Positions 7,721-49,421 of a stretch of DNA of 64,000 nucleotides are shown here, piece after piece. Source of the stretch: a virus; the IMG/VR virus record IMGVR_UViG_3300020548_000009, positions 1 to 64,000 of that record. One strand, 5' to 3'. Numbering within the stretch: the first letter of the stretch is position 1; the number at the start of each line of letters is the position of its first letter. The notes under the pieces were generated by a model. That model was not told the origin of the DNA. It saw only the letters and a program-made list of their open reading frames with translations, and searched no databases. A program made the position numbers and the translations under genes.

Positions 7721-8131
7721 TTAGAGGTACTTGGCTACTGCGCCGTAGGAAGAAGTACGGACATACTCTTCGTCGGACAGTTCTAGCACTCGGATTGCGT
7801 TCGCAAGTTCCTCTTGCGCTTCTTTATTGATGCGCTCGCTGAAATTGCTTTCCAAAGTGGGAAGTGAAATCTTGTGACTGAAAGTCACGGTGACTTCATT
7901 TACTTCTTCTTGGTTGTAGCGGTAAGGGTAAGCAAACGATACCTCTTTCGGCGTGAGTTTGCCAGACTTCACAAGCGCGGCGACAGACTTCTTGATGTCT
8001 GCGATTGCCTGCTTCTGAGCCTTCTCAGCCTTAGCGTGGTTGTTCGCTTCCTCAACCTTGCGGTTAAGTGCCTCGTTGAGCGCTTTGAGCAACTTGCCCT
8101 TGGCTACCCGTACATTGATTGTCTTACTCAT
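7721..8131 (-). CDS. 136-residue Lys/Ala-rich helical protein
   Basis: Starts MSKTINVRVAKGKLLKALNE at 8131, with AGGAAAGGCAATAAACACA upstream. Residues 10-60 are Ala/Lys/Glu-rich and likely coiled coil; then a beta-like VTVTFSHKI segment and an acidic helix. No family recognised. Confidence 0.75.
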   Translation of the reverse strand: MSKTINVRVAKGKLLKALNEALNRKVEEANNHAKAEKAQKQAIADIKKSVAALVKSGKLTPKEVSFAYPYRYNQEEVNEVTVTFSHKISLPTLESNFSERINKEAQEELANAIRVLELSDEEYVRTSSYGAVAKYL

Positions 8132-8159
8132 TGTGTTTATTGCCTTTCCTGTTTTGTTG

Positions 8160-8216
8160 GTAGTGGGGAGGTTTCCCCACTACTATTATTGTATCACAGG
8201 TTGCGCTCTTTGGCAA
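8160..8216 (-). promoter_or_regulatory. Promoter overlapping a stop codon, plus leader hairpin
   Basis: TTGCCA, 17-base spacer, TACAAT (8188-8216). The TGA of the upstream gene (8196-8194) is part of TGTGATACAAT. The leader has a 10-bp hairpin GTAGTGGGGA/TCCCCACTAC (8160-8183). Confidence 0.75.
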
Positions 8217-8592
8217 CCCGTGACGCGATTTTCTTTCGCTGGTTGTTGGTACGCCAGCATGACGCTTGGTAGGCGATTTCGCTTACCTCGTCGCAGTAGA
8301 TGCCGACAAACTCGGTCTCGATGACTGCCTGATTGCGCTTTGCGCCGCTGGTGACACGGCGAACGCAACGCACACGGTAGGTGTCGTTGAAGTCCAGCGT
8401 GATTTCCACCATGCGAGCACGCCCGACAGGGAGCCATACGCCGATTGTGTTTTGTTCAGCGTCACGGAGAGAACCCCAACGACCACCGGAGATGGCGAAT
8501 AGGTTCATCATGCCGACTTGACGGATGATTTCCGCTGGGTCGCATTCACGACCTTCACGGTTGAGTATTGGGAGTGTGTATGTGTTTGTCAT
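8194..8592 (-). CDS. 132-residue hypothetical protein, leaderless
   Basis: Starts MTNTYTLPILNREGRECDP at 8592, 6 bases after a perfect -10 TATAAT. The product looks like a mixed alpha/beta protein (ISGGRWGSLRDAEQNTIG; MVEITLDFNDTYRVRCVRR). Its last codons (AKERNL, stop) form part of the next promoter. No family recognised; the compact fold and RCVRR segment could suit nucleic-acid binding, unproven. Confidence 0.75.
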   Translation of the reverse strand: MTNTYTLPILNREGRECDPAEIIRQVGMMNLFAISGGRWGSLRDAEQNTIGVWLPVGRARMVEITLDFNDTYRVRCVRRVTSGAKRNQAVIETEFVGIYCDEVSEIAYQASCWRTNNQRKKIASRVAKERNL

Positions 8593-8598
8593 ACTCTC

Positions 8599-8627
8599 AT
8601 TATACGACCTGTTAGACAAATTAGCAA
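8599..8627 (-). promoter_or_regulatory. Leaderless promoter with TGTCTAACA spacer motif
   Basis: TTGCTA, 17-base spacer with TGTCTAACA (8610-8618), TATAAT; ATG 6 bases later. Confidence 0.8.
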
Positions 8628-8687
8628 CTCTTTTAGTGAACTTTCTGAGTGGCCGGCTGACCACGGAGAGTGACCTCGGCCCCTGTG

Positions 8688-8714
8688 GCTTATTTGCATG
8701 GCTTGCAAATAAGC
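8688..8714. repeat. 11-bp hairpin or operator
   Basis: GCTTATTTGCA (8688-8698), loop TGGCT, TGCAAATAAGC (8704-8714). Perfect arms in an intergenic gap, not next to a T-run. Confidence 0.55.
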
Positions 8715-8776
8715 AACTGTTGTGATTTGCCCCTGGGATGGGCGGGCAGGAAAGGATTGCCTGCCCACCCTCCGCG

Positions 8777-8995
8777 TCAGGAGTTTGCCTCCATTTCGCA
8801 GAATCGTTCCCATAGGTCTTCTTCGGTGTTGTAGCGGTCGCCCAAGTCATCGACGCCAATCGGTCTGCCCGTGGCACCGCACCATTCGTAGAAGCGGTCT
8901 ACCTTTTTCTTCCAGTTAGCGTAAGTGCTAACAAGTTGAGGGTCGCCCATCCAGACAAATCCCCGGTACGGACGGCTCACTATTTTGCTATTCAT
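8777..8995 (-). CDS. 72-residue hypothetical protein
   Basis: Starts MNSKIVSRPYRGFVWMGDP at 8995, with AGAAAGGAAAACACA upstream. Trp-rich and acidic toward the end. No family recognised. Followed by a GGGCAGG/CCTGCCC-type hairpin around 8747-8772. Confidence 0.7.
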   Translation of the reverse strand: MNSKIVSRPYRGFVWMGDPQLVSTYANWKKKVDRFYEWCGATGRPIGVDDLGDRYNTEEDLWERFCEMEANS

Positions 8996-9025
8996 TGTGT
9001 TTTCCTTTCTTGTGTTGTTACTTCT

Positions 9026-9054
9026 ATTGTATCACACTTATTGTCAGTTTGCAA
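9026..9054 (-). promoter_or_regulatory. Promoter, AAGTGTGATACAAT class
   Basis: TTGCAA, 17-base spacer, TACAAT. Confidence 0.8.
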
Positions 9055-9094
9055 CTCCGGTTGGAGATTCTGCCCCTGCGCTCGGGCGAGCCGT

Positions 9095-9118
9095 GGGCTG
9101 GTGGTTTCCCACCAGCCC
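9095..9118. terminator. GGGCTGGTGG hairpin
   Basis: GGGCTGGTGG (9095-9104), loop TTTC, CCACCAGCCC (9109-9118), just after the gene at 9126-9572. Confidence 0.65.
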
Positions 9119-9125
9119 GACAGAC

Positions 9126-9572
9126 TCAGCCGAAGATTGCTCCTACTGCGTCAGCGAGTGCGCCTTGCGCCTTGCCTTCGTCAATAGTCAGTTCGTCGTT
9201 GCCTGCCATTGAGAGTGCGCTGGCGATAGAACCGTCACGGCTCACCACGACCAGCAACTCCACACGCCGACGCTCAGGGTGCTGAGACGGGGGGGTGTTG
9301 TCACCGTCTGCGACGGGCGAAGCCCAGCCAGCAGTAATAACGCCGTAGTAGTTTGCTGACTTGTCTGGGGTGACATTGTCCAGCAGGTCGTAGACATCTC
9401 CACCACACTGCTCCATGTCCTTTATCCAGATTGGGTGTCCGTCATGGAACGCCACGGGTGCTACCCGAGCCTTTGACGGGGTATTGGTTGGGTTGGTGTT
9501 GAGACAGTCCACGCCGAGCAGTGCGACGATTTCCGCCACGCTCAGGTCTGTCGTATTCGTGAGTGTATTCAT
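9126..9572 (-). CDS. 148-residue hypothetical protein
   Basis: Start at ATG 9572 (MNTLTNTTDLSVAEIVALLG), with AAGGAAAGGCAACACA upstream. Helical N-terminus, then PVAFHDGHPIWIKDMEQCGG and a beta-rich ERRRVELLVVVSRDG segment. No family recognised. Promoter at 9622-9650. Confidence 0.75.
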   Translation of the reverse strand: MNTLTNTTDLSVAEIVALLGVDCLNTNPTNTPSKARVAPVAFHDGHPIWIKDMEQCGGDVYDLLDNVTPDKSANYYGVITAGWASPVADGDNTPPSQHPERRRVELLVVVSRDGSIASALSMAGNDELTIDEGKAQGALADAVGAIFG

Positions 9573-18561: not shown

Positions 18562-19023
18562 TTAAAAGGGAAGTCTGAACCACATGTCCTTGCCGCGCGC
18601 ACAGTCATGCACGCTGCTTAGCCCAATCCGCTTGTACATCGCCCGCGTATTCGCGTTTGAGTCAATGGCGTGGTATTTACCTGTGTCGTTACCAAACTTT
18701 TTAAATACTCGATTGACCATCTGATACTCCTTGATTGCCGGAGCATCTTGTCCATCGATGTCTGTGTCGTTGAAGAGGGCGAGGTCTGGCTGCCATCCGG
18801 TACGGTCATAGATGCGCTTCAACGTGGGAATGGCCCACTTGATGTTGCGTGCCGTAATCAGGATGGTGAACTCCGGTTCAAGGAGTTCTGTCATCCACTT
18901 GCGATAGTCCTCGTGATTGCTCACGAAGTCATCAAAGGCGTGGTTACGCATCTCGCTGAAGTTGGACGACAAAGCCACGTTCAAGTCCATCAGTACGATG
19001 CGCTCGGTTGACTTCTTAGCCAT
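18562..19023 (-). CDS. HAD-like hydrolase, degenerate active site
   Basis: 153 residues from ATG 19023 (MAKKSTERIVLMDLNVALS). The layout fits a small HAD phosphatase: strand RIVLMDLN, ILITARN (motif II Thr), a Lys in PAIKEYQ and HAIDSNANTRAMYKRIG near motif IV. Motif I is normally DxDxT; here it reads DLNVA, so the second Asp is Asn and the Thr is lost. Substrate unknown; activity doubtful. Confidence 0.6.
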   Translation of the reverse strand: MAKKSTERIVLMDLNVALSSNFSEMRNHAFDDFVSNHEDYRKWMTELLEPEFTILITARNIKWAIPTLKRIYDRTGWQPDLALFNDTDIDGQDAPAIKEYQMVNRVFKKFGNDTGKYHAIDSNANTRAMYKRIGLSSVHDCARGKDMWFRLPF

Positions 19024-19516
19024 TCTTCTCTCGTTCTCTATCCGCTTTCGGGTCTCTGACTTCCCACGAACCACGCTGTATTTTGCGGAAGTAAGGGGAT
19101 GTTTTGAGATAGTTTAGAACCGTCGGATAGGAAAATCCCGAAAGGCCGACAATCTCTTCAGTGGTTACTTCCTTGTAAAGATTGTTCTTGCACCACTCTT
19201 CAAGGGCTTTCCACTTGTCTGCGCGTCGCTCCGGCTTCTTTTCCTGAACGGCCTCTTTTAGCCGTTCTTTTCCAAGATATTCCGAAACCAGATACTCAAT
19301 GACTGGTGTGGAGATTGAGTAGTCGCGCATAAAGCGAACCACGTTGCCTGCGGACGGCGTCTGCTGCCAGACCTGCATGACATACAGCCCGCGGATGAGT
19401 TCGCCCATACGGGCCGACTCGTCGCGCGGAACTTTGTATATCGTGCCGTGCTTGGCTGCAGCGTCGCGCCACAGTTCTGCGTTTTTCTTATCAACTATTT
19501 CGTCTGTAATTTTCAC
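19016..19516 (-). CDS. 166-residue protein with C-terminal winged-helix-like domain
   Basis: Starts MKITDEIVDKKNAELWRDAA. Residues 115-160 (TTEEIVGLSGFSYPTVLNYL, then RKIQRGSWEVRD) look like a helix-turn-helix with a wing. N-terminal half is helical. ATGA overlap with the upstream gene and 8-base overlap with the next. A DNA-binding regulator is likely. Confidence 0.65.
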   Translation of the reverse strand: MKITDEIVDKKNAELWRDAAAKHGTIYKVPRDESARMGELIRGLYVMQVWQQTPSAGNVVRFMRDYSISTPVIEYLVSEYLGKERLKEAVQEKKPERRADKWKALEEWCKNNLYKEVTTEEIVGLSGFSYPTVLNYLKTSPYFRKIQRGSWEVRDPKADREREKNG

Positions 19517-22013: not shown

Positions 22014-22103
22014 GTGCCTCAGTGTAGGGTCATGCCTTGTGTATCGTTGTGATAGTACCGCGAGTATAGAGTCTATGTATGAATCGAATTGTGGGGTTTG
22101 AGG

Positions 22104-22700
22104 ATGAGTTCAACAGCCATCGGTAACAGAACGGGCGTCAACAAAGGCACCCACATGGAGTTCATGATGTTCACGCCCGAGGAGTGCCAGCACATCGTGG
22201 ACTGGGCTATCCGGCATGGCTATGCCCAACCTGGCCTTGTCCACCGATATAAGACCGGAGAAGCCGTAGGAACCGATTTAAGGCGTTGTAAAGAGTATTT
22301 GGTAGAACCGGGCGATATTCGCTTTAAAAACGATTCTACGCTCTCTGAGAGGGTTCTGGCGGGGTTTGAGCGTGGAAATGTCTGGGGCCTGTCCTATACC
22401 GGGGTTCCTTCCATCCGAGTACTGGAGTATCAGGCCGGAGACGGGTACGGCTGCCATACCGATTGGTCATACGGTGCAGCACGGGAGCGCAAGTTGTCCA
22501 TGACCGTGCAGTTGTCTTCCCACTACCACTACAAGGGCGGGCGGGTTGTGTTGTATGCGGGGCCGCAGGATGACTCCATCTCCGTTGTTCAGGGGATGGC
22601 GACCGTGTGGCCGTCATGGACCCTTCACGAGGTCTTGCCAGTGGAGTCGGGGGTTCGCTATGCCCTAACGACGTGGGCACATGGAGAGGCGTACCGATAG
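22104..22700 (+). CDS. 2OG-Fe(II) oxygenase, prolyl-hydroxylase-like
   Basis: 198 residues from ATG 22104 (MSSTAIGNRTGVNKGTH), preceded by TTTGAGG. Double-stranded beta-helix motifs: iron ligands H and D in CHTDWSYGAA, distal H in SWTLHEVLPV and the 2-oxoglutarate Arg in SGVRYALTTWAHG. A plus-strand member of the window's large oxygenase set. Substrate unknown: protein or nucleic acid. Confidence 0.85.
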   Translation: MSSTAIGNRTGVNKGTHMEFMMFTPEECQHIVDWAIRHGYAQPGLVHRYKTGEAVGTDLRRCKEYLVEPGDIRFKNDSTLSERVLAGFERGNVWGLSYTGVPSIRVLEYQAGDGYGCHTDWSYGAARERKLSMTVQLSSHYHYKGGRVVLYAGPQDDSISVVQGMATVWPSWTLHEVLPVESGVRYALTTWAHGEAYR

Positions 22701-23490: not shown

Positions 23491-23880
23491 CTACACGCGC
23501 TGGCCTGTTTTCTCAATCACGAAGCCATCTTCGCGGTTCAGTACGACATAGTGATAATCGACCAAGTCAAAGTACTTTTCGCATGCTTCAAGTACTGCGT
23601 CGGTTGGGAGTGTTGAGCATGTGTAGAGGTCAAATTGCACGCGCGCCGGAACTTCTTCATCCCACACGTGAAATGCGATGTGAGAAGTTTCAATGCACAC
23701 TGCTGCAGTGATGCCGCGGTTGCCTTCTGCTTCTACGTAGTGAGCATGAGGACCTGTAACAATCTTCATGCCGATATTGCTAACTAATTCAGTCAACCAA
23801 GCCTTGACTGATTCGACGTCGCGCGGTGGCTGATAAGCCTGACCGTTCATCAAAAGGTGGTTGTGCAAGATTTTTGTCAT
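23491..23880 (-). CDS. speD-like: SpeD-like pyruvoyl-dependent decarboxylase
   Basis: 129 residues, the size of class 1b S-adenosylmethionine decarboxylases. The block CIETSHIAFHVWDEEV aligns with the SpeD processing site (usual ISESHLTIHTWPE): the Ser that becomes the pyruvoyl group and both His are kept, but the Glu before Ser is Thr. The later DLYTCSTLP keeps the catalytic Cys. Known phage SpeD homologues may decarboxylate AdoMet, arginine or ornithine, so the substrate is open. The 5' end overlaps the WhiB gene by 92 bases. Confidence 0.75.
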   Translation of the reverse strand: MTKILHNHLLMNGQAYQPPRDVESVKAWLTELVSNIGMKIVTGPHAHYVEAEGNRGITAAVCIETSHIAFHVWDEEVPARVQFDLYTCSTLPTDAVLEACEKYFDLVDYHYVVLNREDGFVIEKTGQRV

Positions 23881-24343
23881 GGGCTACTTTCTTGATAAAT
23901 GCAATATCTTCTGGATGGACAATATAGTCGACAATGTTCCTATACCTCAAGAAGGATGCCCTGATGTTCCACGTCCTTTTGTTTTCGATTCCCCAAAAGC
24001 GTCCGACTATCGCCCTGACCTGTTCTGGGAATCCACCCCAAATCCCTTGTGGCTCAAACTCCAGGGAGTACAAAAAGCACTCTTGGCGGATAGGGCAAGA
24101 GCGGCACATCTCAATGGCTTCTCTTCGCTTTGACACTTGGTCTTTTGTGTAGTGCCCGTTCACCTGAGAGGGGAAGAACATTGAGGTGTCTTGACCTTCG
24201 CAGGCGCCGCCGCGCGGCGCTTTCTGATTTCCTTCAACCAGATATTTGTTGTTCTGAAGAAACAGGTCTTGCGGTACCTGCATTCGAAACTTTGGGTCCG
24301 GGCTAAATGCTCCGTTTTCGCGCATTCGATTTTGTGTGGTCAT
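23789..24343 (-). CDS. WhiB-family iron-sulfur regulator
   Basis: 184 residues starting MTTQNRMRENGAFSPDPKF. Four Cys in the WhiB arrangement: GACEGQDTSMFFP, then MCRSCPIRQEC, followed by the GIWGG turn in EFEPQGIWGGFPEQVRA. WhiB proteins are restricted to Actinobacteria and their phages, and bind sigma factor via a [4Fe-4S] cluster. The C-terminal 70 residues are longer than usual and basic. Overlaps the SpeD-like gene by 92 bases out of frame. Confidence 0.85.
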   Translation of the reverse strand: MTTQNRMRENGAFSPDPKFRMQVPQDLFLQNNKYLVEGNQKAPRGGACEGQDTSMFFPSQVNGHYTKDQVSKRREAIEMCRSCPIRQECFLYSLEFEPQGIWGGFPEQVRAIVGRFWGIENKRTWNIRASFLRYRNIVDYIVHPEDIAFIKKVAHDKNLAQPPFDERSGLSATARRRISQGLVD

Positions 24344-25304: not shown

Positions 25305-25679
25305 CTACTCCAACTCGATAATTTCTATAGTCGCCTTACTCTCGCCAGAGATGACCGGCGCCTCGAATATCAGTCTACGCACAGTATCCGGTCCATCGCC
25401 AGTAAGGATGCCGGCATCTACGAGCCCGTCAATCATGGCTTTTGCTACTGGGAAGTGCCCACCAGTGTCTGCTAGGCCCCGTTTGTTCACACGGTGGGGG
25501 GTGAAGCGGACCTCGATTGCCGTCATCTTGGGAATCTTGCGGGCAATGGCAGACACGCAGGCGGCCTCACGCCATTCCTTGACCTTCTTGGCGCGGGTGA
25601 AGTGATGAAGCGTGCGTTCTTTGTTGAGGGTCCACATTTCACCCCAAACCTCAAGCGTGTAGGTCTTTGGCTTCTTCAT
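25305..25679 (-). CDS. RusA-like Holliday junction resolvase
   Basis: 124 residues from ATG 25679, overlapping the CmoA-like gene as ATGA. VRFTPHRVNKRGLADTGGHF and AKAMIDGLVDAGILTGDGPD follow the RusA pattern of acid, DaL...G.i..Dg, seen in divergent actinophage RusA proteins. Some usual Asp residues are replaced by Gly, so catalytic detail is uncertain. Would resolve branched DNA before packaging. Confidence 0.65.
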   Translation of the reverse strand: MKKPKTYTLEVWGEMWTLNKERTLHHFTRAKKVKEWREAACVSAIARKIPKMTAIEVRFTPHRVNKRGLADTGGHFPVAKAMIDGLVDAGILTGDGPDTVRRLIFEAPVISGESKATIEIIELE

Positions 25680-26395
25680 TTGAATGCCACCCAACCAGCA
25701 AAGTTCAGGCACTGCCAGAAACGCTGCACATTGGTGAACCCAGCGTCTTTGAGCATCTGCTCGTTTTCTGAACCACGCAACGGGACGAGCACACCCTGAA
25801 GTGCCTTTCTCTTTTCCTCTATCTGTTCTTGTGTATAACCTTTATCGGCTTTGAATGTGTGATAAATGTCAACCAACAAATCCTGACAAAGCGGTGTCTC
25901 GCCAAGTATCTTCTCCACGAGAATAAACGCACCATTTAAGGACAAACCATTATGCACTTGCTGATAGAAGTTTTGGCGAATATCAAGGTGAATGAATTGC
26001 GCGGTGAGTACCGACGTGATAAGCGAGTATTCGAGGGGCCGTATCTCGATATCGCTGACATCCGCACAAACAAAACGAACGTTGTTAAAGTTCCCAAAAA
26101 GTTTAGTAGCAGCGTCAATCATGGGCTGACTGGAGTCGACACCAACAGCGGTAGCCGGAACGTCGGCAGGAAGAGCGTCAAGGATTTGGTAGATAGTTTC
26201 ACCACGGCTGCAACCAATATCCAAAAAATTTGACACGTTCGCTGAGCAGAGAATCGGCGCAGCAACTCGCACAACAGAATCGCGCATGGTCTGATACCCA
26301 GGGATTGACCTAGAAATCATGTCGTCAAATACTTTTGTTACGCCTTCATCAAAGGCCCACTTGCCAGTTGGCTTGTAGTTATCGCGCTCGCTCAT
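25676..26395 (-). CDS. cmoA-like: CmoA-like carboxy-SAM synthase
   Basis: 239 residues, close to bacterial CmoA in length. The alignment runs end to end: KWAFDEGVTKVFDDMISRS near the N-terminus, FLDIGCSRGETI for SAM binding, FILVEKILGE, YHTFKADKGYTQEQIEEKR and FWQCLNFAGWVAFK. CmoA makes carboxy-S-adenosylmethionine from SAM and prephenate; the Lys-Arg of the GYxxxxIxxKR motif, near the Arg reported to hold the carboxylate, is kept. Overlaps the ParB-methyltransferase gene as ATGA, so the two are probably coupled. Its usual partner CmoB is absent here. Confidence 0.85.
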   Translation of the reverse strand: MSERDNYKPTGKWAFDEGVTKVFDDMISRSIPGYQTMRDSVVRVAAPILCSANVSNFLDIGCSRGETIYQILDALPADVPATAVGVDSSQPMIDAATKLFGNFNNVRFVCADVSDIEIRPLEYSLITSVLTAQFIHLDIRQNFYQQVHNGLSLNGAFILVEKILGETPLCQDLLVDIYHTFKADKGYTQEQIEEKRKALQGVLVPLRGSENEQMLKDAGFTNVQRFWQCLNFAGWVAFK

Positions 26396-27939
26396 AACTT
26401 CATTCCCAAGCGCTTGGAAAATGCTGCCTTTGCCTCTTCTGCCATTCCGAGTCGGCGTCCTTCTGGATGCGGGACATTGAACTCAAACTCAATAGCGGCG
26501 CGCAATTCGTCTTCCCCAATTTGCCTAGCGTTAAACCCGACTGCCTGCACCAGTCCGTTCTTTGCGGTCAAGAACGTAAGAACCTGTTTATAGCCGTGAG
26601 AGATAAGAGCACCAAACTCTGTTTCGGTGTGGTACTTCTGGACCTTTGGCTTTAGCGCTATATCGGAGATGATGATGCGTGGCTCATAATCAAGGGCAAA
26701 TCCGTTGCTTGATGTGTCGTGACCCTTCTTTAAATCACCACGAGTGTGATTGAACCAGCGGTCTGACTCCGTGCAGATTGCGGCTGTATGGAGTTTTGTA
26801 TGCGGCGAAGATAGGGCGGCAACGATTGCGATGACGTGTTTACGGTCCTGGAGAAACGGAATGCTATTGAATACCGAGGCAATGAAGATGCTGTCCCATT
26901 CCGTACCGTCAGCCACGCGTTCTAGGAATTTTGCTGTTAGTTCGCGCGCTGCGTCGGTATCAATAGTTTCGTTATCTTTTGCAAGGAAGAATGGCTCAAA
27001 TGCAACCGCATCCACTCCCATGTTCTTGAGAATCTCTGTTTTATCGCAAAGGCCTGCACCGAAGTCGATGACATGATTGCCGTAGTAGTCCTTCCACAAC
27101 TCAACGTGACGTGGATTGTTTAGGTCAAATGCGCCGTTGCGATTGCCGGAGTTGATGAAGTGGCGGAGAAAGTCCTCCAAGAACGTCGGGGTGAGAATCT
27201 GGACTCGCTGATTCTTGCGCCGGAAAGAGTTGTAGCGCAGAAGGTCTTCGTAGCGCTCTTGAATGTTGTAGTCCATTGTGAGAAGGTTCAGCATCGCACG
27301 AACTTCTTCGGCAATTTCTGGCGCCACCTGAACCGTCTGTACGGTGTCTTCGTTTACCGATATCGCGTAGGTCAATCGAGCGAGGCCATTGAGAACCTTG
27401 TAATCAGTTGTGCAGATAACGGGCATTTGCGGGAGGCCGTTTGTCTTCAACTGGGCTGCCATTGCAACTGCGTGTTGTTCTGGCCATTTGCCGTTTAGTT
27501 GGATGAGCCTGAGCGTAGAGACTGGCTTGGTCTTCAGTACTGGATACCATTCCGGAGAATCAACAGGGATGTCCGGGAGCATCTTGATTTTCTCAAGGTC
27601 TCCAAGTTTTGTCATCAGGTCATCTTTGAGTTCTGTGGTCGAACGGGTTTTGTACATGTCGTTCGTGGCGCGGTTGTATAAAACGTTGATTCCCATGCGT
27701 CGCTCAATCTTGAACGTGGGCACCCGCACAACGGGAACCATCGTGGCTCCCATGTTCGTAGCAACCATGTGGCGCTGGTGACCACTGAGAATCTCGCCAT
27801 CTTTGTCTGCGTAGATGGGCAGCAGCCAGCCAAACTTACGCAGCGATAATTCGACAAGTTCCAGCCTCTCTGCATCCGCTTTGCGCGGGTTGTATGCAGA
27901 TGGCCTTAAGTCTGTTACTGGCGTAAGAACTGGCTTCAT
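26392..27939 (-). CDS. ParB-domain/methyltransferase-like fusion protein
   Basis: 515 residues. Residues 1-75 form a ParB/sulfiredoxin-type domain (LRPSAYNPRKADAE; EILSGHQRHMVATNMG). A second, weaker ParB-like segment appears near 150-200 (KTNGLPQMPVICTTDYKVLN). Residues about 290-480 look like a class I methyltransferase: NHVIDFGAGLCDKTEILKNM, VDAVAFEPFFL and WDSIFIASVFNSIPF. It starts one base into the tandem ParB gene's stop and is coupled to the CmoA-like gene. A DNA-modification role, possibly with carboxy-SAM, is inferred. Confidence 0.75.
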   Translation of the reverse strand: MKPVLTPVTDLRPSAYNPRKADAERLELVELSLRKFGWLLPIYADKDGEILSGHQRHMVATNMGATMVPVVRVPTFKIERRMGINVLYNRATNDMYKTRSTTELKDDLMTKLGDLEKIKMLPDIPVDSPEWYPVLKTKPVSTLRLIQLNGKWPEQHAVAMAAQLKTNGLPQMPVICTTDYKVLNGLARLTYAISVNEDTVQTVQVAPEIAEEVRAMLNLLTMDYNIQERYEDLLRYNSFRRKNQRVQILTPTFLEDFLRHFINSGNRNGAFDLNNPRHVELWKDYYGNHVIDFGAGLCDKTEILKNMGVDAVAFEPFFLAKDNETIDTDAARELTAKFLERVADGTEWDSIFIASVFNSIPFLQDRKHVIAIVAALSSPHTKLHTAAICTESDRWFNHTRGDLKKGHDTSSNGFALDYEPRIIISDIALKPKVQKYHTETEFGALISHGYKQVLTFLTAKNGLVQAVGFNARQIGEDELRAAIEFEFNVPHPEGRRLGMAEEAKAAFSKRLGMKL

Positions 27940-29258
27940 TATTCTCCGTTTGCTCTACGCGGGCTGACTTTCTTTGAGCGTCGCTGTCGTGTAGAAACCC
28001 ATGCATCGTTCTGAATATCAAGAAGAGAGACGATTCCTGCGCATACTTCGTCGTATGAGTATCCAAACTCAACGAACATTGCCTCTTCCCAATCCTCGTA
28101 AAAGTTCGGCGCCATCTTGAATTCCCACTTACCGATAATCGCAGTCACGTTTCTTGGCTTGTCGTTCTTTTCCTTAACCGGCTTTTCTTTGATGCCCCAA
28201 CCGGCGACCTCATGCATCAGTTCATCTAGGTCATCTCCTGTGTATCCAGTTCCGTCAAACACCGGGAGGGACTGAAGAATCTCTGCAAGTTCTACGTGGT
28301 CGTACGAGCCAAGGTCGGCAGTTTTGTTATCAACCAGGACAATCTTTGCCGCAGATTCTTCATCACAGTCAACAAATGTTGTGGCGATTTGCTTCCAGCC
28401 AAGCATCTTGGCGGCTTTCCATGTGTGATTGCCAACGAGAATCGAGTTATCTCGCTTGTTCACCACAATTGGCCTGAACTGACCGTTCTTGCTCAGAGAC
28501 TCTGCAATAAGGCCGATATCGCCCTGTCGTGCATTCATCGGGTATGGGAAAACACTGTTGATATCCACGTTCTCAGTGGACAGCATGACTGAGTGCATTT
28601 GCTGCCTGTCGATGTTGCGCTTTTGACGCTTGGGCTTTGATTTTTCCGGCGGCAAATGATTCACATCCGAAAGACGCAAACGCTTCTTGAGTTCCACAAG
28701 AACCTTGTCCTCATCTCCAACCTTTCCAATAAGGTCATCTGCCCAATCGGAATAAACATCGTCATCCACAAGAATTCTGTAACTGCCCACGCAAACGCGA
28801 ATCTCTTTGCCGACAGCGCCTGTTCTATCCCGATTCGGCGCTTCGAATTCTCCGTCACCACTAATCAGCGCCTCAAGTTGGTCGAGGTCAACTTGCTGGA
28901 ATCCAGTTCCCTCCAAGGTTGAAAGCGACTGAAGAAGGTCAAGCAATTTTGAATCGTCGTATGACGACATGTCGGATGTTCTGTTGTCTGCAAGGACAAT
29001 CTTCTGTGCACCGTAGTCGTCCACGTCCACAAACGAAGCAGAGATGTGAGTCCACCCAAGGCTTCTAGCGGCTCTCCATGTGTGGTTTCCGGCAAGAATC
29101 GTGTTATCGCGCTTGTTGACGACAATCGGCTTGTATTGTCCGTTGACCTGCAGCGATTGAGCAATAGCCTCAACATCTCCACGCCGTGGATTCTTTGGGT
29201 ATGGCTTTACGCTGGTGATTTCAACAACTTCAGTATTTACCTTGATATTGTCCGACAT
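27939..29258 (-). CDS. Tandem ParB-domain protein
   Basis: 439 residues with an internal duplication. Copy 1 (about 12-125) has VKPYPKNPRRGDVEAIAQSL and PIVVNKRDNTILAGNHTWRA. Copy 2 (about 232-345) has VFPYPMNARQGDIGLIAESL and PIVVNKRDNSILVGNHTWKA. Both carry GNHT where nucleotide-binding ParB proteins have a GxxR-type motif. Copies are joined by a basic linker (PPEKSKPKRQKRNIDR). The ATG lies 7 bases after TATACT but no good -35 is seen. Confidence 0.85.
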   Translation of the reverse strand: MSDNIKVNTEVVEITSVKPYPKNPRRGDVEAIAQSLQVNGQYKPIVVNKRDNTILAGNHTWRAARSLGWTHISASFVDVDDYGAQKIVLADNRTSDMSSYDDSKLLDLLQSLSTLEGTGFQQVDLDQLEALISGDGEFEAPNRDRTGAVGKEIRVCVGSYRILVDDDVYSDWADDLIGKVGDEDKVLVELKKRLRLSDVNHLPPEKSKPKRQKRNIDRQQMHSVMLSTENVDINSVFPYPMNARQGDIGLIAESLSKNGQFRPIVVNKRDNSILVGNHTWKAAKMLGWKQIATTFVDCDEESAAKIVLVDNKTADLGSYDHVELAEILQSLPVFDGTGYTGDDLDELMHEVAGWGIKEKPVKEKNDKPRNVTAIIGKWEFKMAPNFYEDWEEAMFVEFGYSYDEVCAGIVSLLDIQNDAWVSTRQRRSKKVSPRRANGE

Positions 29259-31289: not shown

Positions 31290-31637
31290 TCACTCTCTCC
31301 AAACGTTGATTTTTAAACCTGGTTGATTGACATTTGTGCTTGATACGACAATGGAATGGACGGATGCATTCCATTTTTCTCCAGCATCAAGTTTTGGCGC
31401 CATGATTAACGCAATAAGTCGTGGCAAATGGCCAATCGTGCCATTTGCTGTGTCCACGCGAATTGAGTTTTCGTCGTGCTCGTTGTCGGGCTCACGCACC
31501 AAGGAGCACGGAGCATTCATGACTGCCGTATCTTTGGCAAGTGCATAAATGTTTTCCGGATAGTCCTTGGAGAACGATACCCCTACAACTTTGGTGACGA
31601 ATTGTTCTGGCATTGTTCCGTCGATGTACGACGTCAT
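31290..31637 (-). CDS. HIRAN-domain protein
   Basis: 115 residues. VVGVSFSKDYPENIYALAKD, CSLVREPDNEHDENSIRV and GTIGHLPRLIALIMAPKLD match the HIRAN domain, which binds 3' ends of single-stranded DNA in Rad5/HLTF. Here it stands alone, ATGA-coupled to the upstream gene. The phage's SNF2 ATPase (47229-49421) could be a functional partner, by analogy with the HLTF fusion. Confidence 0.85.
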   Translation of the reverse strand: MTSYIDGTMPEQFVTKVVGVSFSKDYPENIYALAKDTAVMNAPCSLVREPDNEHDENSIRVDTANGTIGHLPRLIALIMAPKLDAGEKWNASVHSIVVSSTNVNQPGLKINVWRE

Positions 31638-32713: not shown

Positions 32714-34069
32714 TTATTCTCCGTAGGCTTTCTTGTTTTTATAACTGTACCAAGTAACCGCAGTATGCCTATTCCCAAACAAAACTGGATTGACCCTGTG
32801 GACAAAAGGAAACGATGATGAAAAAAGGACTATTTTTCCTGCTTTTGGTTCGACAACCAAATTGTGATTTTCAAATACCAGTTCCCCACCAGAAAAATCA
32901 TCGTTCAGGAACATAATAACTGATATCACTCTTGGAAATTCAGCACAATCATCTGTGTGGTTATGAAACTTATCGCTTCGTTCATACCTCAAAAGAGACC
33001 AGGTATGAGACTCTAAATCCAAGATATTATACATTTTTGCAAAGTCTTTTACTATCGGCTCCACTCCTGCCTGAAGGCTTGAATATAAGCGGTTTGCCGG
33101 GTCGTGAGGATGGCACTCTTCCGCAGAACTGTTTAAGAAATTTACATAGCAGCGCCTTGCGTTATAGTCGACAGTCGGTTTCCTGTCCGGACTCAAAACC
33201 TCAGCGCGCTTCCAAAATCTAAAACAAACATTTCTAGTGAGTCCGTCAAGAGTGAGCGATGCTTCTCGTGGAACCATGTACTCGACAATTCCTGGAGCAA
33301 GAACCTTTTTTGACAATATTGGCAATTCGGTTATCTCCACCTCGTCATCAGTAAACTTGCTAAACATTTCCGTGTATGTTCCCAAAACATTTGAGTAGTC
33401 GTGGCACGGGCAAACTGGCTGTTCAACTGGACAATCTGGAAGTGGTATGTATCTGTTTTTATTAAAATATCGAATGTCTCCATCTCTTCCATATTTTTGC
33501 ACGCCGTTTTTTTCAGTTTGAATCCAGTGGCTTGGCTGAGTGAAATGCATGAACAAAACAACAGTGCTCAATGAGTCATCCGTGGTTGGATACGGTGGCC
33601 GTGCGTGCATGTGCTGTTGACCAGCGAAAATGATTGCGCTGTTCGCTTCTTGCTTGTAGTCAACCCTCTCAACACGAAGGTCCCAATTAGCAGTGTTTTC
33701 AATTGTTAAATCTATTGTTGTCTGGGTGCCATTCTGGTCATAGTGTTCCCAAAGAGATGGTGTGCAGCCATTTTGAATTTGATATCTAGAAACAAAGAAA
33801 TATGCCTTCTCTAATGTGTCGTCATTAAAGATTTCTCTTGCCATTTTTAGACAGTATTCCTCAATGTCTGGGTCTAGGGATATTGACGATTCCCATCTAC
33901 CTATCATCGTGTGATATTGCTTGTTGCCACTTGGGCCAAGTTTTAAATCATCTACAGATTTTTTTACTCTTTTAAATAATTCTTCTGGCAGAAAATTATT
34001 GATTAATTGTGGCTCATCAACCAGCGGCGTTGGCAAATCAAACTTAATTACGCCGTCACGCCTTGGCAT
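32714..34069 (-). CDS. Two-domain 2OG-Fe(II) oxygenase
   Basis: 451 residues. The C-terminal domain (about 300-445) is a complete prolyl-4-hydroxylase-type fold: H and D in FHNHTDDCAEFPR, FLNDDFSGGELVFEN, distal H in FPFVHRVNPV and Arg in GNRHTAVTWYSY. The N-terminal half has a second, divergent cupin-like domain (WEHYDQNGTQTTID; AGQQHMHARPPYP). It lies in the tail operon near the proline-rich tail protein, a possible substrate (inferred). Confidence 0.8.
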   Translation of the reverse strand: MPRRDGVIKFDLPTPLVDEPQLINNFLPEELFKRVKKSVDDLKLGPSGNKQYHTMIGRWESSISLDPDIEEYCLKMAREIFNDDTLEKAYFFVSRYQIQNGCTPSLWEHYDQNGTQTTIDLTIENTANWDLRVERVDYKQEANSAIIFAGQQHMHARPPYPTTDDSLSTVVLFMHFTQPSHWIQTEKNGVQKYGRDGDIRYFNKNRYIPLPDCPVEQPVCPCHDYSNVLGTYTEMFSKFTDDEVEITELPILSKKVLAPGIVEYMVPREASLTLDGLTRNVCFRFWKRAEVLSPDRKPTVDYNARRCYVNFLNSSAEECHPHDPANRLYSSLQAGVEPIVKDFAKMYNILDLESHTWSLLRYERSDKFHNHTDDCAEFPRVISVIMFLNDDFSGGELVFENHNLVVEPKAGKIVLFSSSFPFVHRVNPVLFGNRHTAVTWYSYKNKKAYGE

Positions 34070-34957: not shown

Positions 34958-37900
34958 TTATCCTATGCAGGTATTGGTCGCTACACACGTAAATCCTGGT
35001 TCGCATGGCGGGTCACAGACAGGAGGAGGGCTTACTGGCGGAGTAACAGGAGGTGTCACCGGCGGAGTAACTGGCGGAGTAACTGGCGGCGTGACCGGCG
35101 GAGTAACAGGCGGCGTGACCGGCGGAGTAACAGGCGGCGTGACCGGCGGAGTTACCGGCGGCGTTACCGGGGGAGTGTAGATGCCGTTACAGTCATTCGG
35201 CGCGTTCTGGAATGGCGCAAGGCATTGATTTTCATAACCACAAATTTCGTTAATGTAAAGGAACGTCGTGCATAGTTGACCCTCATAGGAAGGTTCCACT
35301 GGAGATACTGGGTCAACCGGGGCAACTGGACCAACTGGGTCGACCGGGGATACTGGGTCAACTGGGCTTGGCGAACCAGCGCACTCTTCAAGACAATAAA
35401 TTGTTTCCGTGTTGTCATCATGAACAATGCGGGCAAATAACGTAAGGGTATCTGCGTCCCAAAAGAATCCGATTCTGTCCGTGTAATCATTTGCTTGATA
35501 TTGAATTCCTTCTTTCCATACTGCAAGTTTTTCTGTTGTTGCCGGGTTGCCATCAGATGCCCACAACTCAAGTTTTTCCCATGTCAAAATTGATTTTGAA
35601 CCAAATGAGTCAATGCTTTCTGGACCATTCAATTTCATTCCTGCCGCGTCATACCCTTGACTGTCCGCCCATCCTTCAGCAGAATCAAGGTTTCCAATAA
35701 ACATATTCCCCAAGAATGTGCCGCCAAGTTGTAGATATCCAGGTTGTATTTCCAGGTCTCCGATTTTTCCTGTTGCTGCAGTCATGTAACCAGCATTTGT
35801 TACCGAAAATGGAGCATTGCTTATGCTGGCGGAACCGGACCACATGTCTCCATTTGCACCAACGTGGAAAGATGTGGCGTCAAAACCACCAATATCAATT
35901 GTTGAACCAATAATTTGACCAGCAAAATATCCGTCAACTGTGTAAAGGTCACCAGTCACGGAACTAATTTGAGTTACCAAATCTCCGGCGTTATTGAATG
36001 CTCGGAGTCCTGAAGAATCTATGATAATTCGAGGATTAGATGTAGATGTTTGGAGCGTTGGTGCGGTAAGTGTTCCTTGAACCCATGTGCCATTTCGTAC
36101 TGTTACTGAGTTGAGTTCTGCATCTCCAGATGCTTCAATTGTCCATCCGCTTGTGTCTGCAACATAGTTGTTTGAGCGGATTGCTCCGTTGAACAAGACC
36201 TGAGCGCTTGCCGAAGCGGTGAAGGAAAACGGAGGAGATGGCACGCCGGACTGACCGTTTGTCGTATATGGAAGAATTGTAAATTGGTATTCTCGCCCAG
36301 GAGCAGCAAGATTCTCAAACACTGCAGAGTTTTTGTCTGCGGCAACCGTGGCCGAGTGACGCTCAACAATTCGAGTTACGTCTCCGACAGATGCTGTTCC
36401 TGTTGGGATGTCTGGGCCTACGTCGTCAAATGTAAAAAAAGTTGCTGACGCACTTGTCAAAAACACAAGAGTTCTGTCAAAGTATCCGTCTGTAGTGCCA
36501 GTGATATTGATTAAGTCGCCAACATTAAAGCCATGCTGGTCATCGACTTCTGCATAAGCAATATTTCCGTCACGGTAGATGTCGACAATTGGATAACTAA
36601 TTGCTATTCCAACACTGTTTTGCTCTTCTCGGTAAACAATCGCTTCGTAATGAGTAGCGCTTGTGTTGTCTGGGGATTCCCAAGAGGCAACAACTCTGTT
36701 GCTCATCCCAACAACTTCAGCGCCAACAGAAGTTCCTGTTGGCGCCAACGGCTTTGATGATGTGCCGCGAAGCGTAAATGTTGGTATTTCAGCAGCACCG
36801 AGACGCCCGTAGTTTGCTGCGTACTTTAGGTTGCTTGCAATATCCTGAAAGATGTCTCCGAAAGTGACTTCAATTGTTTCGTTGCCGTTTTCGTCGATAG
36901 AAGCACTTATCGCACTGATAATTCGTTCGCTGAATACTCCTGTATCAATTTCCACGAGTACTTTGTCGCCAATGTCAAAGTCTTCCCACGCGGTCATGCC
37001 GTCTCGCTCAGCAAATGATGTGGTTATTTGCAACTTGCCATCGCGAACCTGGCGAACCGCAGAGGCAGTGATATTTGCAACGGCCGGAGCATCTTCCGAC
37101 GTATTCTCAATAAACATTTCACGGAAACCGTAAGTTCCTGTGCGGTCAGAGATTTGCCTATCCAGATTGAACCCGTCCGAGCCATAAACAACTGTTCGTA
37201 GTTCAGAAACTGACGTTCGTGTTTCTACGGTCTCCAGCATTGGAAGACTAAAAATGAGTGCTGCAGAACCACTGGTCATGTCATCGCCAAATGGTTCGTC
37301 AAACACAATTGTGTCAGTGGTAAACGGCCTTACTGCAACACTGATAACGCCGCTTGGCGAGACATGCCAATCCACGCCAGTATTTGCGGAAACTTCGTTT
37401 ATTACATCAAGAAGAGTTCGGCCAACTGCAATGTTGAAGTTTCCTCCATCTCGAACGACTCGCCCTTTCGAGTCTGTTTTACCCAAAGATGATGTGAGGG
37501 TTGCATCAAGAGAAAGTGGCCAGTCAACCGCGTATCCGATTCCTCCACGGCCGTTAAGAGTTTTGATTGCGCCAAAGTCTTCCTTCTTTGTCGAATACTC
37601 ATAGCCAGTATCTGCTTCTGTAAAGAGGATGTAAAAGGCAGATATTCCAGTGAACGCACCAAGCGAAACTTCGGTCCAGACAATGCTTACTGAGCCAACT
37701 TGATTTGATGATGTCAGACCACCATTTGATGTAATAGCAAAAGATTTATACCCATTAGTTGTTCCTTCATTTACGAAGGCTGCGTTGCCGACTTCAAGGT
37801 CTGAGATTGGACTTCCGTCTGCCCTTGCAGTGCGCTGAATAACCCAAGGATTTGAAGAGCCACCAATAGAAACAATCCAATAGACACCGTTATGGGCTTG

Positions 37901-38518
37901 TGTTGTTTGGTTTTTTACAAGGATGGTGTCGCCGACGACCAGGTCTGTAACGCCATCAATTCCGGAGTTGTTTATAGAACCATTGGCAGTTGCTGTAAGG
38001 CGTGCTCCAGCACCAGCCACATCTGTCTGTGGACCAGATTCATAGGTGGCAGAGAGATTGCCAGTCGTTGCAACTCTTACGTTATATGCGTAACCGGGGA
38101 ACAGTCGGTCAAAAAACTTCGGTCGCTGTGTTGTGCCTGCAGTTGCTCGTGCCTGATTGCTGAAATCCTCTGGAAGGACAATTCCCCACCCAAGAGCAGA
38201 AGCAATGCCGCGCCCACCAATAACAAGCGGCTGACTTACTCCGGCGCGGTCAACTTGCACATCCTCAATAAAAAACGTAAATACCGGGTCTCCATCTCTG
38301 CGAACTTGCAGAGCGTATGGACCGTCAAGCAAAGAATCTCCACGCTCTGCTTGAAAAGCATCAAAGAATGGGTCTGAAAAATCGTGCTCCAAAGTTGCTG
38401 AGCCAACGTCGTTTAATTGGTCGGATAACTGAATTGACTTCCAGCGCGGCAAATACGCAATTGTTTGGTTTGGGTCGTTTGCTAGAACAACCCAAACATC
38501 CCAGGTTGTTTTAGCCAT
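34958..38518 (-). CDS. Large tail protein with (VTPP)n region
   Basis: 1186 residues. The N-terminus (TTWDVWVVLANDPNQTIAYL; SATLEHDFSDPFFDAFQAER) fits the siphovirus ReqiPepy6 Gp37-like tail domain. The centre has fibronectin-III-like and beta-structured segments. Near the C-terminus lie PVDPVSPVDPVGPVAPVDP and eleven VTPP repeats, then a Cys-rich end (CDPPCEPGFTCVATNTCIG) that could form a small disulfide module. Likely a baseplate/receptor-binding protein. One-base overlap with the Dit gene. Confidence 0.8.
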   Translation of the reverse strand: MAKTTWDVWVVLANDPNQTIAYLPRWKSIQLSDQLNDVGSATLEHDFSDPFFDAFQAERGDSLLDGPYALQVRRDGDPVFTFFIEDVQVDRAGVSQPLVIGGRGIASALGWGIVLPEDFSNQARATAGTTQRPKFFDRLFPGYAYNVRVATTGNLSATYESGPQTDVAGAGARLTATANGSINNSGIDGVTDLVVGDTILVKNQTTQAHNGVYWIVSIGGSSNPWVIQRTARADGSPISDLEVGNAAFVNEGTTNGYKSFAITSNGGLTSSNQVGSVSIVWTEVSLGAFTGISAFYILFTEADTGYEYSTKKEDFGAIKTLNGRGGIGYAVDWPLSLDATLTSSLGKTDSKGRVVRDGGNFNIAVGRTLLDVINEVSANTGVDWHVSPSGVISVAVRPFTTDTIVFDEPFGDDMTSGSAALIFSLPMLETVETRTSVSELRTVVYGSDGFNLDRQISDRTGTYGFREMFIENTSEDAPAVANITASAVRQVRDGKLQITTSFAERDGMTAWEDFDIGDKVLVEIDTGVFSERIISAISASIDENGNETIEVTFGDIFQDIASNLKYAANYGRLGAAEIPTFTLRGTSSKPLAPTGTSVGAEVVGMSNRVVASWESPDNTSATHYEAIVYREEQNSVGIAISYPIVDIYRDGNIAYAEVDDQHGFNVGDLINITGTTDGYFDRTLVFLTSASATFFTFDDVGPDIPTGTASVGDVTRIVERHSATVAADKNSAVFENLAAPGREYQFTILPYTTNGQSGVPSPPFSFTASASAQVLFNGAIRSNNYVADTSGWTIEASGDAELNSVTVRNGTWVQGTLTAPTLQTSTSNPRIIIDSSGLRAFNNAGDLVTQISSVTGDLYTVDGYFAGQIIGSTIDIGGFDATSFHVGANGDMWSGSASISNAPFSVTNAGYMTAATGKIGDLEIQPGYLQLGGTFLGNMFIGNLDSAEGWADSQGYDAAGMKLNGPESIDSFGSKSILTWEKLELWASDGNPATTEKLAVWKEGIQYQANDYTDRIGFFWDADTLTLFARIVHDDNTETIYCLEECAGSPSPVDPVSPVDPVGPVAPVDPVSPVEPSYEGQLCTTFLYINEICGYENQCLAPFQNAPNDCNGIYTPPVTPPVTPPVTPPVTPPVTPPVTPPVTPPVTPPVTPPVTPPVTPPVSPPPVCDPPCEPGFTCVATNTCIG
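35036..35172. repeat. 12-bp tandem repeat encoding VTPP
   Basis: Eleven 12-base units of the type GGCGGAGTAACA / GGCGGCGTGACC on the plus strand, with silent third-base differences. Expansion or contraction by slippage is possible. Confidence 0.85.
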
Positions 38519-47228: not shown

Positions 47229-49421
47229 TTATTCTGCTTTAGCCAAAAGCCTCTTCATCAAATCTTTGACAACAGATTGCTGCTCAACTTCATCACCTTC
47301 TGTAACTGCATCAACGATTTTTCTCTTTGCATCAACGAGGTCATAGATATCTTCGTCAATCGTGTCTGCGGCAAGTAGATACCACGCTTGCACATTGTTC
47401 TTTTGACCGATTCGGTGACAGCGGTCTTCTGCTTGGTCATGCTCGCCTGGCGTCCAGCCCATTTGAACAAATACAACATCTGAACCAGCAGTAAGTGTGA
47501 TACCAACTCCACCAGCCTGCAAGTTGAGAACAATCACTCGTGCTTCCTTGTCATTTTGAAAAGCGTCAACTGCGCGCTGTCGCTCTTCGAGCGTGTCGCG
47601 ACCAGAAACCCTAAAGCCTCCGTATTTGTTTGAAAGGTGGTCAACTACATCAACGTTGTGGGCGAACACAACAAGTTTGCGGTCGCATGACTCCAAGAAA
47701 GAATCAATCCACTCTTCTACCGCGTCCATCTTTGCCCACGCCGCAAGTTTTTTTAGAACCTGCGTTCTTGCCAGATGTTCAGATGAGTCTTTTGCTTTGT
47801 AGCCGTTTGCGCTTAGGAATGAGACAAGGTCATTTTCTGCATTTCTGTAGTCCTTGAATCCAGCACCGGATACATCAAGGTGAACGACATTTCGCACCTT
47901 GTCTGGAAGTTCTTGTAGCACCTCGTCTTTTGTTCTGCGGATGTAGCAGTTCTGACGGAGTTTTGTATTCAGTTCAACAAGGTTGCTGGCACCACCGGTA
48001 TCCCAGCCAAATCCATTGTGATGAGCATTTGCATACCGTTTCAGGAATGACCACTTACCACCAAAGCGACTCAGCATTCCCATAATCTCCAACTGAGATA
48101 CAAGTTCTGCTGGTCGGTTCATAACTGGAGTTCCGGACAAAAGAAGAACTGCGCCAGACCTGCTTACCGAAGCGGCAATATCTTTTGCTGCCTTGGCACG
48201 TTTTGATGTCGCATTTTTTACATAGTGCGACTCATCAAGTATCAGTCCATTTGGTTCTAGGTGCTTGATTGGCTCAACAAACTTATACAGAATGTCGTAG
48301 TTCACCACGTTCACATCACATGAAACAATATCAGTTTTCCCAGATACAACATTGACCGTTCTGTGGGGCAGCCATTTTGCAAACTCTCTGCGCCAGTTTT
48401 CCTTCAGGGATGCAGGGCACACGATGATTGCCGGGAATGCATCCTTTGATTCCAGCGTTGCAATCGCCTCAACCGTCTTGCCAAGACCCATCTGGTCAGC
48501 GATAAGACACCTTCCAACTGTTGATGCATATGCAACTCCGGCCTTTTGATAAGGCATAAGAGTTCCAGAAAGAGTGGGGATTACCACATCTGCATCGGTA
48601 GATGTGGACGCCTCAAGCAATTCAGTTTCGCGCTTTGCTGCCTTTAGCAGCGTGTCGCGCAGGGACTTGGAAATCGAAAACCCGTATTTGTCTGCAATCT
48701 CAACTGCGCTCAGCGAGGGCGGGGCTGTCCATACCCGCTTCTTTACATCCCACAAGCGACCTTGAAGTTGCTTGATTTCAGCAACAATATCTTGGTCGTA
48801 GGGAAACTCAAAGACAAGACGGCCGCTCTTTGAGACCGTTATTGTTCTGGTCGTATCTACGGTTTGTTCTTCTGCAACTATTTTCATATCATCGAATTCT
48901 TTCGTTGTGTTGAACTTGTACTGCTTTATCAAAGACGCTACCTGCTCTTTGCTTGAGAGCGGAGCCAGCCACATGCTTGCTTCTTGGTTCCATAGGGCGC
49001 CAGGTATTTTTTGTAGTTCGCCTATCAGTTGCTCATCGTACTCGCACTCAATAGCAAACACTTCGCCATTTGTTGAGACCCTATTGACTCCCTTTTGGCG
49101 AAGTTCTGACATTATTGATGTTGCATCTGCACCTAAATAATTCTTGGGTCTTGGGGGCGGAACTATTTGGTCATAGTCAATTCCATGACTTTTGAGTTGG
49201 CCAACATAACGTCCAAGAACCGTCCAGGCTATGTACGAAATTGCTGGCGACCACTTTGTGTCCGGAAGCAACGAAGCGAGCGCCCCGAAACGAGAATCTG
49301 CCTTACTGAAACCAACACCATCCTGCTGCTCTGCGCCATCGCACAGACCTGCAATTTTTCTAAATGCCGTTGCTAGTGGCTTTACATCGTAGGCATTTGT
49401 TATGCCTGGACTGTCGACCAT
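47229..49421 (-). CDS. SNF2-family DNA-dependent ATPase with HARP-like modules
   Basis: 730 residues. Two HARP-like modules (about 95-165 and 190-250; both with LxxIPGALWNQEASMW / LQGRLWDVKKRVW patterns) precede a SNF2 ATPase: Walker A LIADQMGLGKT, motif II LDESHYVKN, motif III LLSGTP, and LQAGGVGITLTAGSDVVFVQ with DRCHRIGQ near the end. SMARCAL1-type enzymes anneal or remodel forked DNA. Alone it may act in replication-fork repair or anti-restriction. Confidence 0.85.
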   Translation of the reverse strand: MVDSPGITNAYDVKPLATAFRKIAGLCDGAEQQDGVGFSKADSRFGALASLLPDTKWSPAISYIAWTVLGRYVGQLKSHGIDYDQIVPPPRPKNYLGADATSIMSELRQKGVNRVSTNGEVFAIECEYDEQLIGELQKIPGALWNQEASMWLAPLSSKEQVASLIKQYKFNTTKEFDDMKIVAEEQTVDTTRTITVSKSGRLVFEFPYDQDIVAEIKQLQGRLWDVKKRVWTAPPSLSAVEIADKYGFSISKSLRDTLLKAAKRETELLEASTSTDADVVIPTLSGTLMPYQKAGVAYASTVGRCLIADQMGLGKTVEAIATLESKDAFPAIIVCPASLKENWRREFAKWLPHRTVNVVSGKTDIVSCDVNVVNYDILYKFVEPIKHLEPNGLILDESHYVKNATSKRAKAAKDIAASVSRSGAVLLLSGTPVMNRPAELVSQLEIMGMLSRFGGKWSFLKRYANAHHNGFGWDTGGASNLVELNTKLRQNCYIRRTKDEVLQELPDKVRNVVHLDVSGAGFKDYRNAENDLVSFLSANGYKAKDSSEHLARTQVLKKLAAWAKMDAVEEWIDSFLESCDRKLVVFAHNVDVVDHLSNKYGGFRVSGRDTLEERQRAVDAFQNDKEARVIVLNLQAGGVGITLTAGSDVVFVQMGWTPGEHDQAEDRCHRIGQKNNVQAWYLLAADTIDEDIYDLVDAKRKIVDAVTEGDEVEQQSVVKDLMKRLLAKAE

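Follow-up and report, generated by a model that had tools for sequence, protein, structure and literature searches.

Carboxy-SAM (Cx-SAM), the product of CmoA, has its classical role in tRNA, where CmoA and CmoB form the bacterial cmo5U34 pathway. Its natural use on DNA was reported only in December 2025, and through a single enzyme class, CmoX (PMC12783734). In Synechococcus phage S-B43, the phage CmoA makes carboxy-SAM and is a proven, very active Cx-SAM synthase, CmoX is a C5-methyltransferase homolog with an SPPC motif and Arg350 that makes 5-carboxymethylcytosine, and CmoY ligates glycine to give 5-carboxymethylcytosine derivatives (PMC12783734). ParB-domain proteins occur near many CmoX genes or on their contigs, and a preliminary search in the same work brought up no N6-adenine or N4-cytosine carboxymethyltransferase candidates associated with CmoA (PMC12783734). 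A further point of comparison is offered by the phage DNA methyltransferases of the PHROG_498 type, predicted DNA-modifying enzymes with an N-terminal ParB domain.

The locus described here shares something with each of these systems. It lies in the virus record IMGVR_UViG_3300020548_000009 (84,684 bases), of which the window, that is, the whole stretch of DNA that was analysed, makes up 64,000 nucleotides. As in S-B43, a CmoA gene stands beside a transferase gene, ParB-domain proteins are often near, and the CmoAs belong to one interleaved tree; the S-B43 transferase is a C5-methyltransferase, whereas here the role would fall to PHROG_5475, a class I enzyme with ParB folds, and in place of a CmoY-type ligase, of which our record holds none (PF00733 unmatched), many members of the group have a HAD-like protein. 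As in the CmoA-CmoB pathway, a predicted maker of Cx-SAM adjoins the gene of a class I transferase, and as in the PHROG_498 type an N-terminal ParB domain is joined to a predicted DNA-modifying enzyme. Our preferred reading, to which we give a probability of roughly 0.7, is that the cassette is a phage carboxy-SAM DNA-modification system with a new, non-C5 kind of transferase. The use of carboxy-SAM on phage DNA, proposed in the initial annotation, is by now established as a general idea, but through a different transferase, CmoX (PMC12783734).

Three of the genes concerned run head to tail on the minus strand and overlap, exactly at the coordinates first given for them: the tandem ParB and fusion genes share one base (TAATG at 27939), the fusion and CmoA homolog genes four (ATGA at 26392-26395). 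The features are as follows.

27939..29258, minus strand: tandem ParB protein, 439 aa (ParB_N, E 6e-17; phrog_723/8071)
26392..27939, minus strand: ParB-ParB-methyltransferase fusion, 515 aa (PHROG_5475; phrog_5475, E 2e-89), candidate Cx-SAM-dependent transferase
27655..27939, minus strand: first ParB N-terminal domain of the fusion (ParB_N), residues 1-95, with GEILSGHQRH
27325..27462, minus strand: core of the second ParB-like fold of the fusion, about residues 160-205, MPVICTTDYKVLNGLARL
26395..27147, minus strand: class I methyltransferase domain of the fusion, about residues 265-515 (from the alignment, the domain model and PDB fold matches)
25676..26395, minus strand: CmoA homolog, predicted carboxy-SAM synthase, 239 aa (TIGR00740; CmoA crystal structures PDB 1im8 and 4gek; phrog_4752)
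18562..19074, minus strand: HAD-like protein, PHROG_32036 homolog (phrog_32036, E 4e-15), the distal member in the window

The repeat proposed for the tandem ParB protein is borne out by self-comparison, its halves being 44% identical over 178 columns and both matching ParB_N. The three-gene arrangement is far beyond chance and is seen again in dozens of lineages, both phage and prophage. CmoX, CmoY and CmoB were sought elsewhere in the record, across its whole length, and none was found: PF00145, PF01555, PF08003 and PF00733 have no match in the 84,684 bases, so that the lack of a visible CmoB-like protein extends to the entire record, and among PF00145, PF01555, PF08003 and PF13649 the only family to match was PF13649, at the CmoA homolog and nowhere else. 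A WhiB gene at 23789-24343 (PF02467, E 7e-13) suggests an actinobacterial host.

TIGR00740 aligns with the CmoA homolog along the full length of the protein (residues 10-239 of 239; E 8e-48). Because its score of 163 bits lies below the NCBIfam equivalog cut-off of 193.3, we regard it as a divergent homolog, CmoA-like rather than CmoA proper. The FDD, GCSRG and GYxxxxIxxKR blocks are all present, as had been reported. In E. coli CmoA the residues in contact with the ligand include Tyr39, Asp62, Ser66, Asp89, Asp117 and Arg199 (PMC3663124); in the alignment all of these, together with the conserved Glu164, are identical in the window's homolog, and Asn90 and Asn132 are replaced by S and V. The initial annotation had made the carboxylate-binding arginine a test of the assignment, and the residue is indeed there (R196 aligns with E. 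coli Arg199), but Arg199 is not a clean marker: the proven S-B43 CmoA has a glutamate at this position, in a stretch with a one-residue gap where the alignment is uncertain, and some fusion-partner CmoAs are very divergent and also lack it. Both NCBIfam CmoA models (TIGR00740 and PRK15451) recognise every one of 35 diverse CmoA-like proteins, the majority of which are partners of a fusion. Family membership thus suggests that the window's homolog makes carboxy-SAM, presumably from host SAM and prephenate.

The fusion matches PHROG_5475, a family of unknown function, from end to end. Its first domain gives a weak single-sequence match to PF02195 (ParB_N; E 0.0038, below the gathering score), and the family profile matches Noc/Spo0J/ParB structures at E 3e-5, which places it in the ParB N-terminal domain superfamily. 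The description as a ParB protein joined to a methyltransferase-like domain stands in both its parts but had overlooked a second ParB-like fold, which aligns to the first with an hhalign probability of 94.8% (E 5e-8). AlphaFold2 models were obtained for the whole fusion (25 rows, mean pLDDT 85.9, pTM 0.81) and for the methyltransferase domain alone (35 rows, pLDDT 88.6); the latter has 149 PDB matches at E<=0.001 and a class I Rossmann-like fold with a cofactor motif. The best fold matches are small-molecule class I methyltransferases (such as PH0226, CcbJ and ToxA, at TM-scores of about 0.5 when normalised to the target), no DNA methyltransferase is among the 50 best, and the domain profile finds nothing but weak UbiG-type matches among PDB sequences and no convincing homology to the CmoA profile (probability 9%). 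Since the catalytic domain resembles small-molecule enzymes, the case for DNA as the substrate comes from the ParB domains and the genomic context.

The conserved blocks of the domain are VIDFGAG, FEP(F/Y), NS(I/V)PFxxDR and PKxQK in the family alignment, and VIDFGAG, FEPF, FNSIPFxxDR and KPKVQKYH in the window. Neither a C5 motif nor a DPPY motif is found in that alignment, and no cysteine is invariant or nearly so. Where N6 and N4 amino-methyltransferases have (D/N/S)PP(Y/F) at motif IV, the family reads NSxPF, and PF01555 does not match; PF00145, the family to which CmoX belongs with its SPPC motif and Arg350, is likewise unmatched. Cysteine-based C5 chemistry is thus unlikely, given that the domain is not of the C5-methyltransferase type and that cysteine is not conserved. 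No residue of the fusion is identifiable as carboxylate-binding; contacts to the substrate or to the carboxylate could fall to the invariant charged residues R235, R241, D365, R366, K432 and K435.

The co-occurrence check suggested for CmoA-like and ParB-methyltransferase genes was carried out, and our survey shows that the fusion and CmoA are near-obligate companions. Among 139 fusion loci gathered from IMG/VR, bacterial genomes and GenBank phages, a profile built from five sequences found a CmoA homolog in 132, and in five of the other seven the sequence stops at the fusion or no more than 0.9 kb from it. A count by lineage is fairer, because some loci share one contig: grouping at 80% identity gave 48 fusion lineages, of which 45 could be tested, and 43 of these have a CmoA homolog, 41 of them at 1.5 kb or less from the fusion. 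One of the 43, L137, is probably a chimeric contig end, and its single open reading frame at 7962-9131, in which the C-terminus of the fusion is joined in frame to an internal part of CmoA, was set aside on that ground; L096 and L097 have no CmoA within 8 kb of the fusion. Among GenBank phages the full-length fusion occurs in 14 (Evaa, HJ05 and 12 Pseudomonas records); each of them has a CmoA homolog, and the two genes are adjacent in all three that were inspected. The Fisher tests count related records as independent, including the window's record beside a near-identical relative, and their values are not probabilities. Prophage-like fusion loci were found in Verrucomicrobia, Clostridia, Vibrio/Photobacterium, Desulfovibrionaceae, Alphaproteobacteria and Chloroflexi, and also in Gordonia. 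We found no account of the pairing of CmoA with PHROG_5475 in the open-access literature, subscription papers and preprints being outside the scope of the search.

The partner of CmoA differs among phages. A C5-methyltransferase gene adjoins CmoA or is one gene away in PaBG, S-B43, TurkishDelight and two staphylococcal phages; PaBG has ParB, C5-methyltransferase, CmoA and an asparagine synthetase-like gene, and TurkishDelight has two ParB genes, a C5-methyltransferase, an amidotransferase/synthetase and CmoA. The order is ParB, fusion and CmoA in SM1, and fusion and CmoA in HJ05. Whole-record searches match PF00145 in six of seven CmoA phages that lack the fusion and in none of nine that have it, and the fusion itself occurs in 0/7 and 9/9, respectively; the two enzymes exclude each other, and the fusion occupies the CmoX slot in the cassette. 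The asparagine-synthetase family follows a similar division (5/7 without the fusion, 1/9 with it). An Erwinia phage is a weaker CmoX case, since its C5-methyltransferase, a 723-aa frame, lies some 16 kb from CmoA. Alcaligenes phage Afa-NA1 (L089) has a CmoA homolog but lacks a C5-methyltransferase and PHROG_5475 alike; with DNA adenine methylase genes present within 8 kb, an adenine methylase is possibly a third type of CmoA partner. The genomic pairing with CmoA that CmoX and the fusion have in common supports the view that the fusion works like CmoX, not that it belongs to the same family.

In a maximum-likelihood tree, the CmoAs with C5-methyltransferase partners and those with fusion partners interleave, the well-supported branches require at least three changes of partner, and the partner labels cluster no more than shuffled labels do. 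The CmoA of TurkishDelight (C5-methyltransferase partner), for example, is sister to that of Evaa (fusion partner) with a support of 100/100. Fusion and CmoA distances are correlated (r 0.52, reached by 0 of 5000 permutations). In many pairs the fusions are 55-73% identical and their neighbouring CmoAs just 22-32%; CmoAs of different clades have therefore come to refill the slot, as one would expect if what is needed is the activity and not a particular gene. This refilling is the strongest, though indirect, indication that the fusion may consume carboxy-SAM.

A fourth member is frequent. A protein with HAD-like features (PHROG_32036), so assigned from its motifs and from a weak match to a polynucleotide kinase, is encoded in 111 of the 139 fusion loci, often directly between the fusion and CmoA; in the window its gene is 6.6 kb from the CmoA gene. 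It has the blocks LLDLNYTL, LITAR, a lysine and IESNPKTR; in motif I the second Asp has given way to Asn, and motif IV reads Glu-Ser-Asn. It was found in none of the seven CmoA phages without the fusion, and Evaa is its only match among GenBank phages. When 72 further loci, mostly close relatives, were fetched by way of this protein, 68 of the 72 had the fusion and CmoA was present in every one. Of the four that lack the fusion, three are truncated; the fourth, L212, is not truncated and has the HAD-like and CmoA genes with no fusion detected. Because Samunavirus, HJ05 and the Vibrio members lack it, the protein is optional, and it may be an accessory to the modification system.

These observations point to a real and near-obligate system of two to four genes that would contain an undescribed transferase class within the published type of phage carboxy-SAM DNA modification. 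The proposal that the fusion uses carboxy-SAM on DNA or another substrate gains from the near-obligate pairing and from the position in the CmoX slot; as an enzyme that is paired with CmoA and takes the place of a known DNA-carboxymethylating enzyme, it probably carboxymethylates phage DNA. The methyltransferase domain would be brought to DNA by the two ParB-like folds, probably together with the tandem ParB protein encoded separately, and there the carboxymethyl group of carboxy-SAM would be transferred to a base, more likely to an N or O nucleophile than to cytosine C5, and the HAD-like protein could contribute an accessory step. No hydroxylase or ligase is consistently linked to the fusion loci, so that an unelaborated carboxymethyl group on an otherwise unmodified base is the simplest guess. 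By analogy, the modified base would shield phage DNA from host nucleases. PHROG_5475 would thereby be a strong non-C5 candidate beyond CmoX, and we see an even chance that it is a second, evolutionarily unrelated natural class of DNA carboxymethyltransferase, carried by phages and prophages across many bacterial phyla, whose target is some base atom besides cytosine C5 and whose product is an undescribed DNA base. If so, DNA would gain a further base and, at a new position, a carboxylate handle, both through a transferase class that is itself new; cultivated phages with PHROG_5475 exist (Gordonia phage Evaa, Aeromonas phage HJ05 and Pseudomonas phage SM1).

The fusion could instead be a DNA methyltransferase that uses ordinary SAM, with the CmoA homolog as an unrelated or regulatory neighbour that, for instance, blunts host defences by depleting SAM. 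Fusions of ParB domains with DNA methyltransferases are common, as the phrog_498 match of the fusion illustrates, and SAM depletion by phage CmoA has been raised as a possibility (PMC12783734). An unrelated neighbour, however, would not be expected to stay adjacent in 43 of 45 lineages, in a slot refilled by very different CmoAs, nor would the fusion be expected to alternate with C5-methyltransferases of the CmoX type, CmoX being a proven user of Cx-SAM. The relatives that share the ParB part only also differ in this respect: 43 such GenBank records are apparently without CmoA, the organism names showing no overlap among the matches listed, and the catalytic domain of the fusion is of a different family from the PHROG_498 type. 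We consider this explanation improbable.

Two further explanations accept that Cx-SAM is used, and both strike us as very improbable. The fusion might be the phage counterpart of CmoB and carboxymethylate tRNA or another RNA, in keeping with the classical role of CmoA and with the fact that the fusion domain, CmoB and CmoA are all class I folds outside the usual DNA methyltransferase families; yet PF08003 is unmatched, the profile of E. coli CmoB shows no convincing homology to the domain (hhalign probability 25%), the window has no tRNA genes, and the enzyme sits in a phage, carries two ParB-like folds, has ParB partners and is interchanged with the DNA enzyme CmoX. Alternatively, the product might still be 5-carboxymethylcytosine, made by an unrecognised or host C5-type enzyme with the fusion as a helper. 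A ParB protein beside CmoA can be an accessory, since ParB-domain proteins accompany CmoX in many contigs (PMC12783734), but the fusion carries a methyltransferase domain of its own with a conserved cofactor motif, and PF00145 is unmatched in the nine fusion phage records and in that of the window. C5-methyltransferases near the fusion in L019, L021, L022, L093 and L094 were considered as CmoX and rejected as PCQ-type enzymes; those upstream in L019, L022, L093 and L094 carry PCQ and not SPPC.

Some other features of these loci deserve mention. The cassette is often just upstream of terminase genes (L024, L037, L084, L085, L086 and L212), a neighbourhood that may link modification to packaging or late expression; in SM1 and HJ05, the second gene downstream of CmoA encodes a protein of about 645 aa that was considered as a ligase and is a terminase. 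The window encodes at least seven 2OG-Fe(II) oxygenase-like proteins (22089-22700 on the plus strand; 32714-34069, 54882-55751, 55745-56620, 56613-57530, 59354-60385 and 61106-61795 on the minus strand), none consistently linked to the fusion in other loci. Five of them cluster beside two glycosyltransferase-like genes (52670-53764 and 53765-54874), possibly a virion-protein decoration island. A large tail-region protein (34958-38518) has PPVTPPVTPPV repeats near its C-terminus (34958-35200), and a HIRAN-domain protein (31290-31637) and a SNF2/HARP-type helicase (47229-49421) reside in the same phage.
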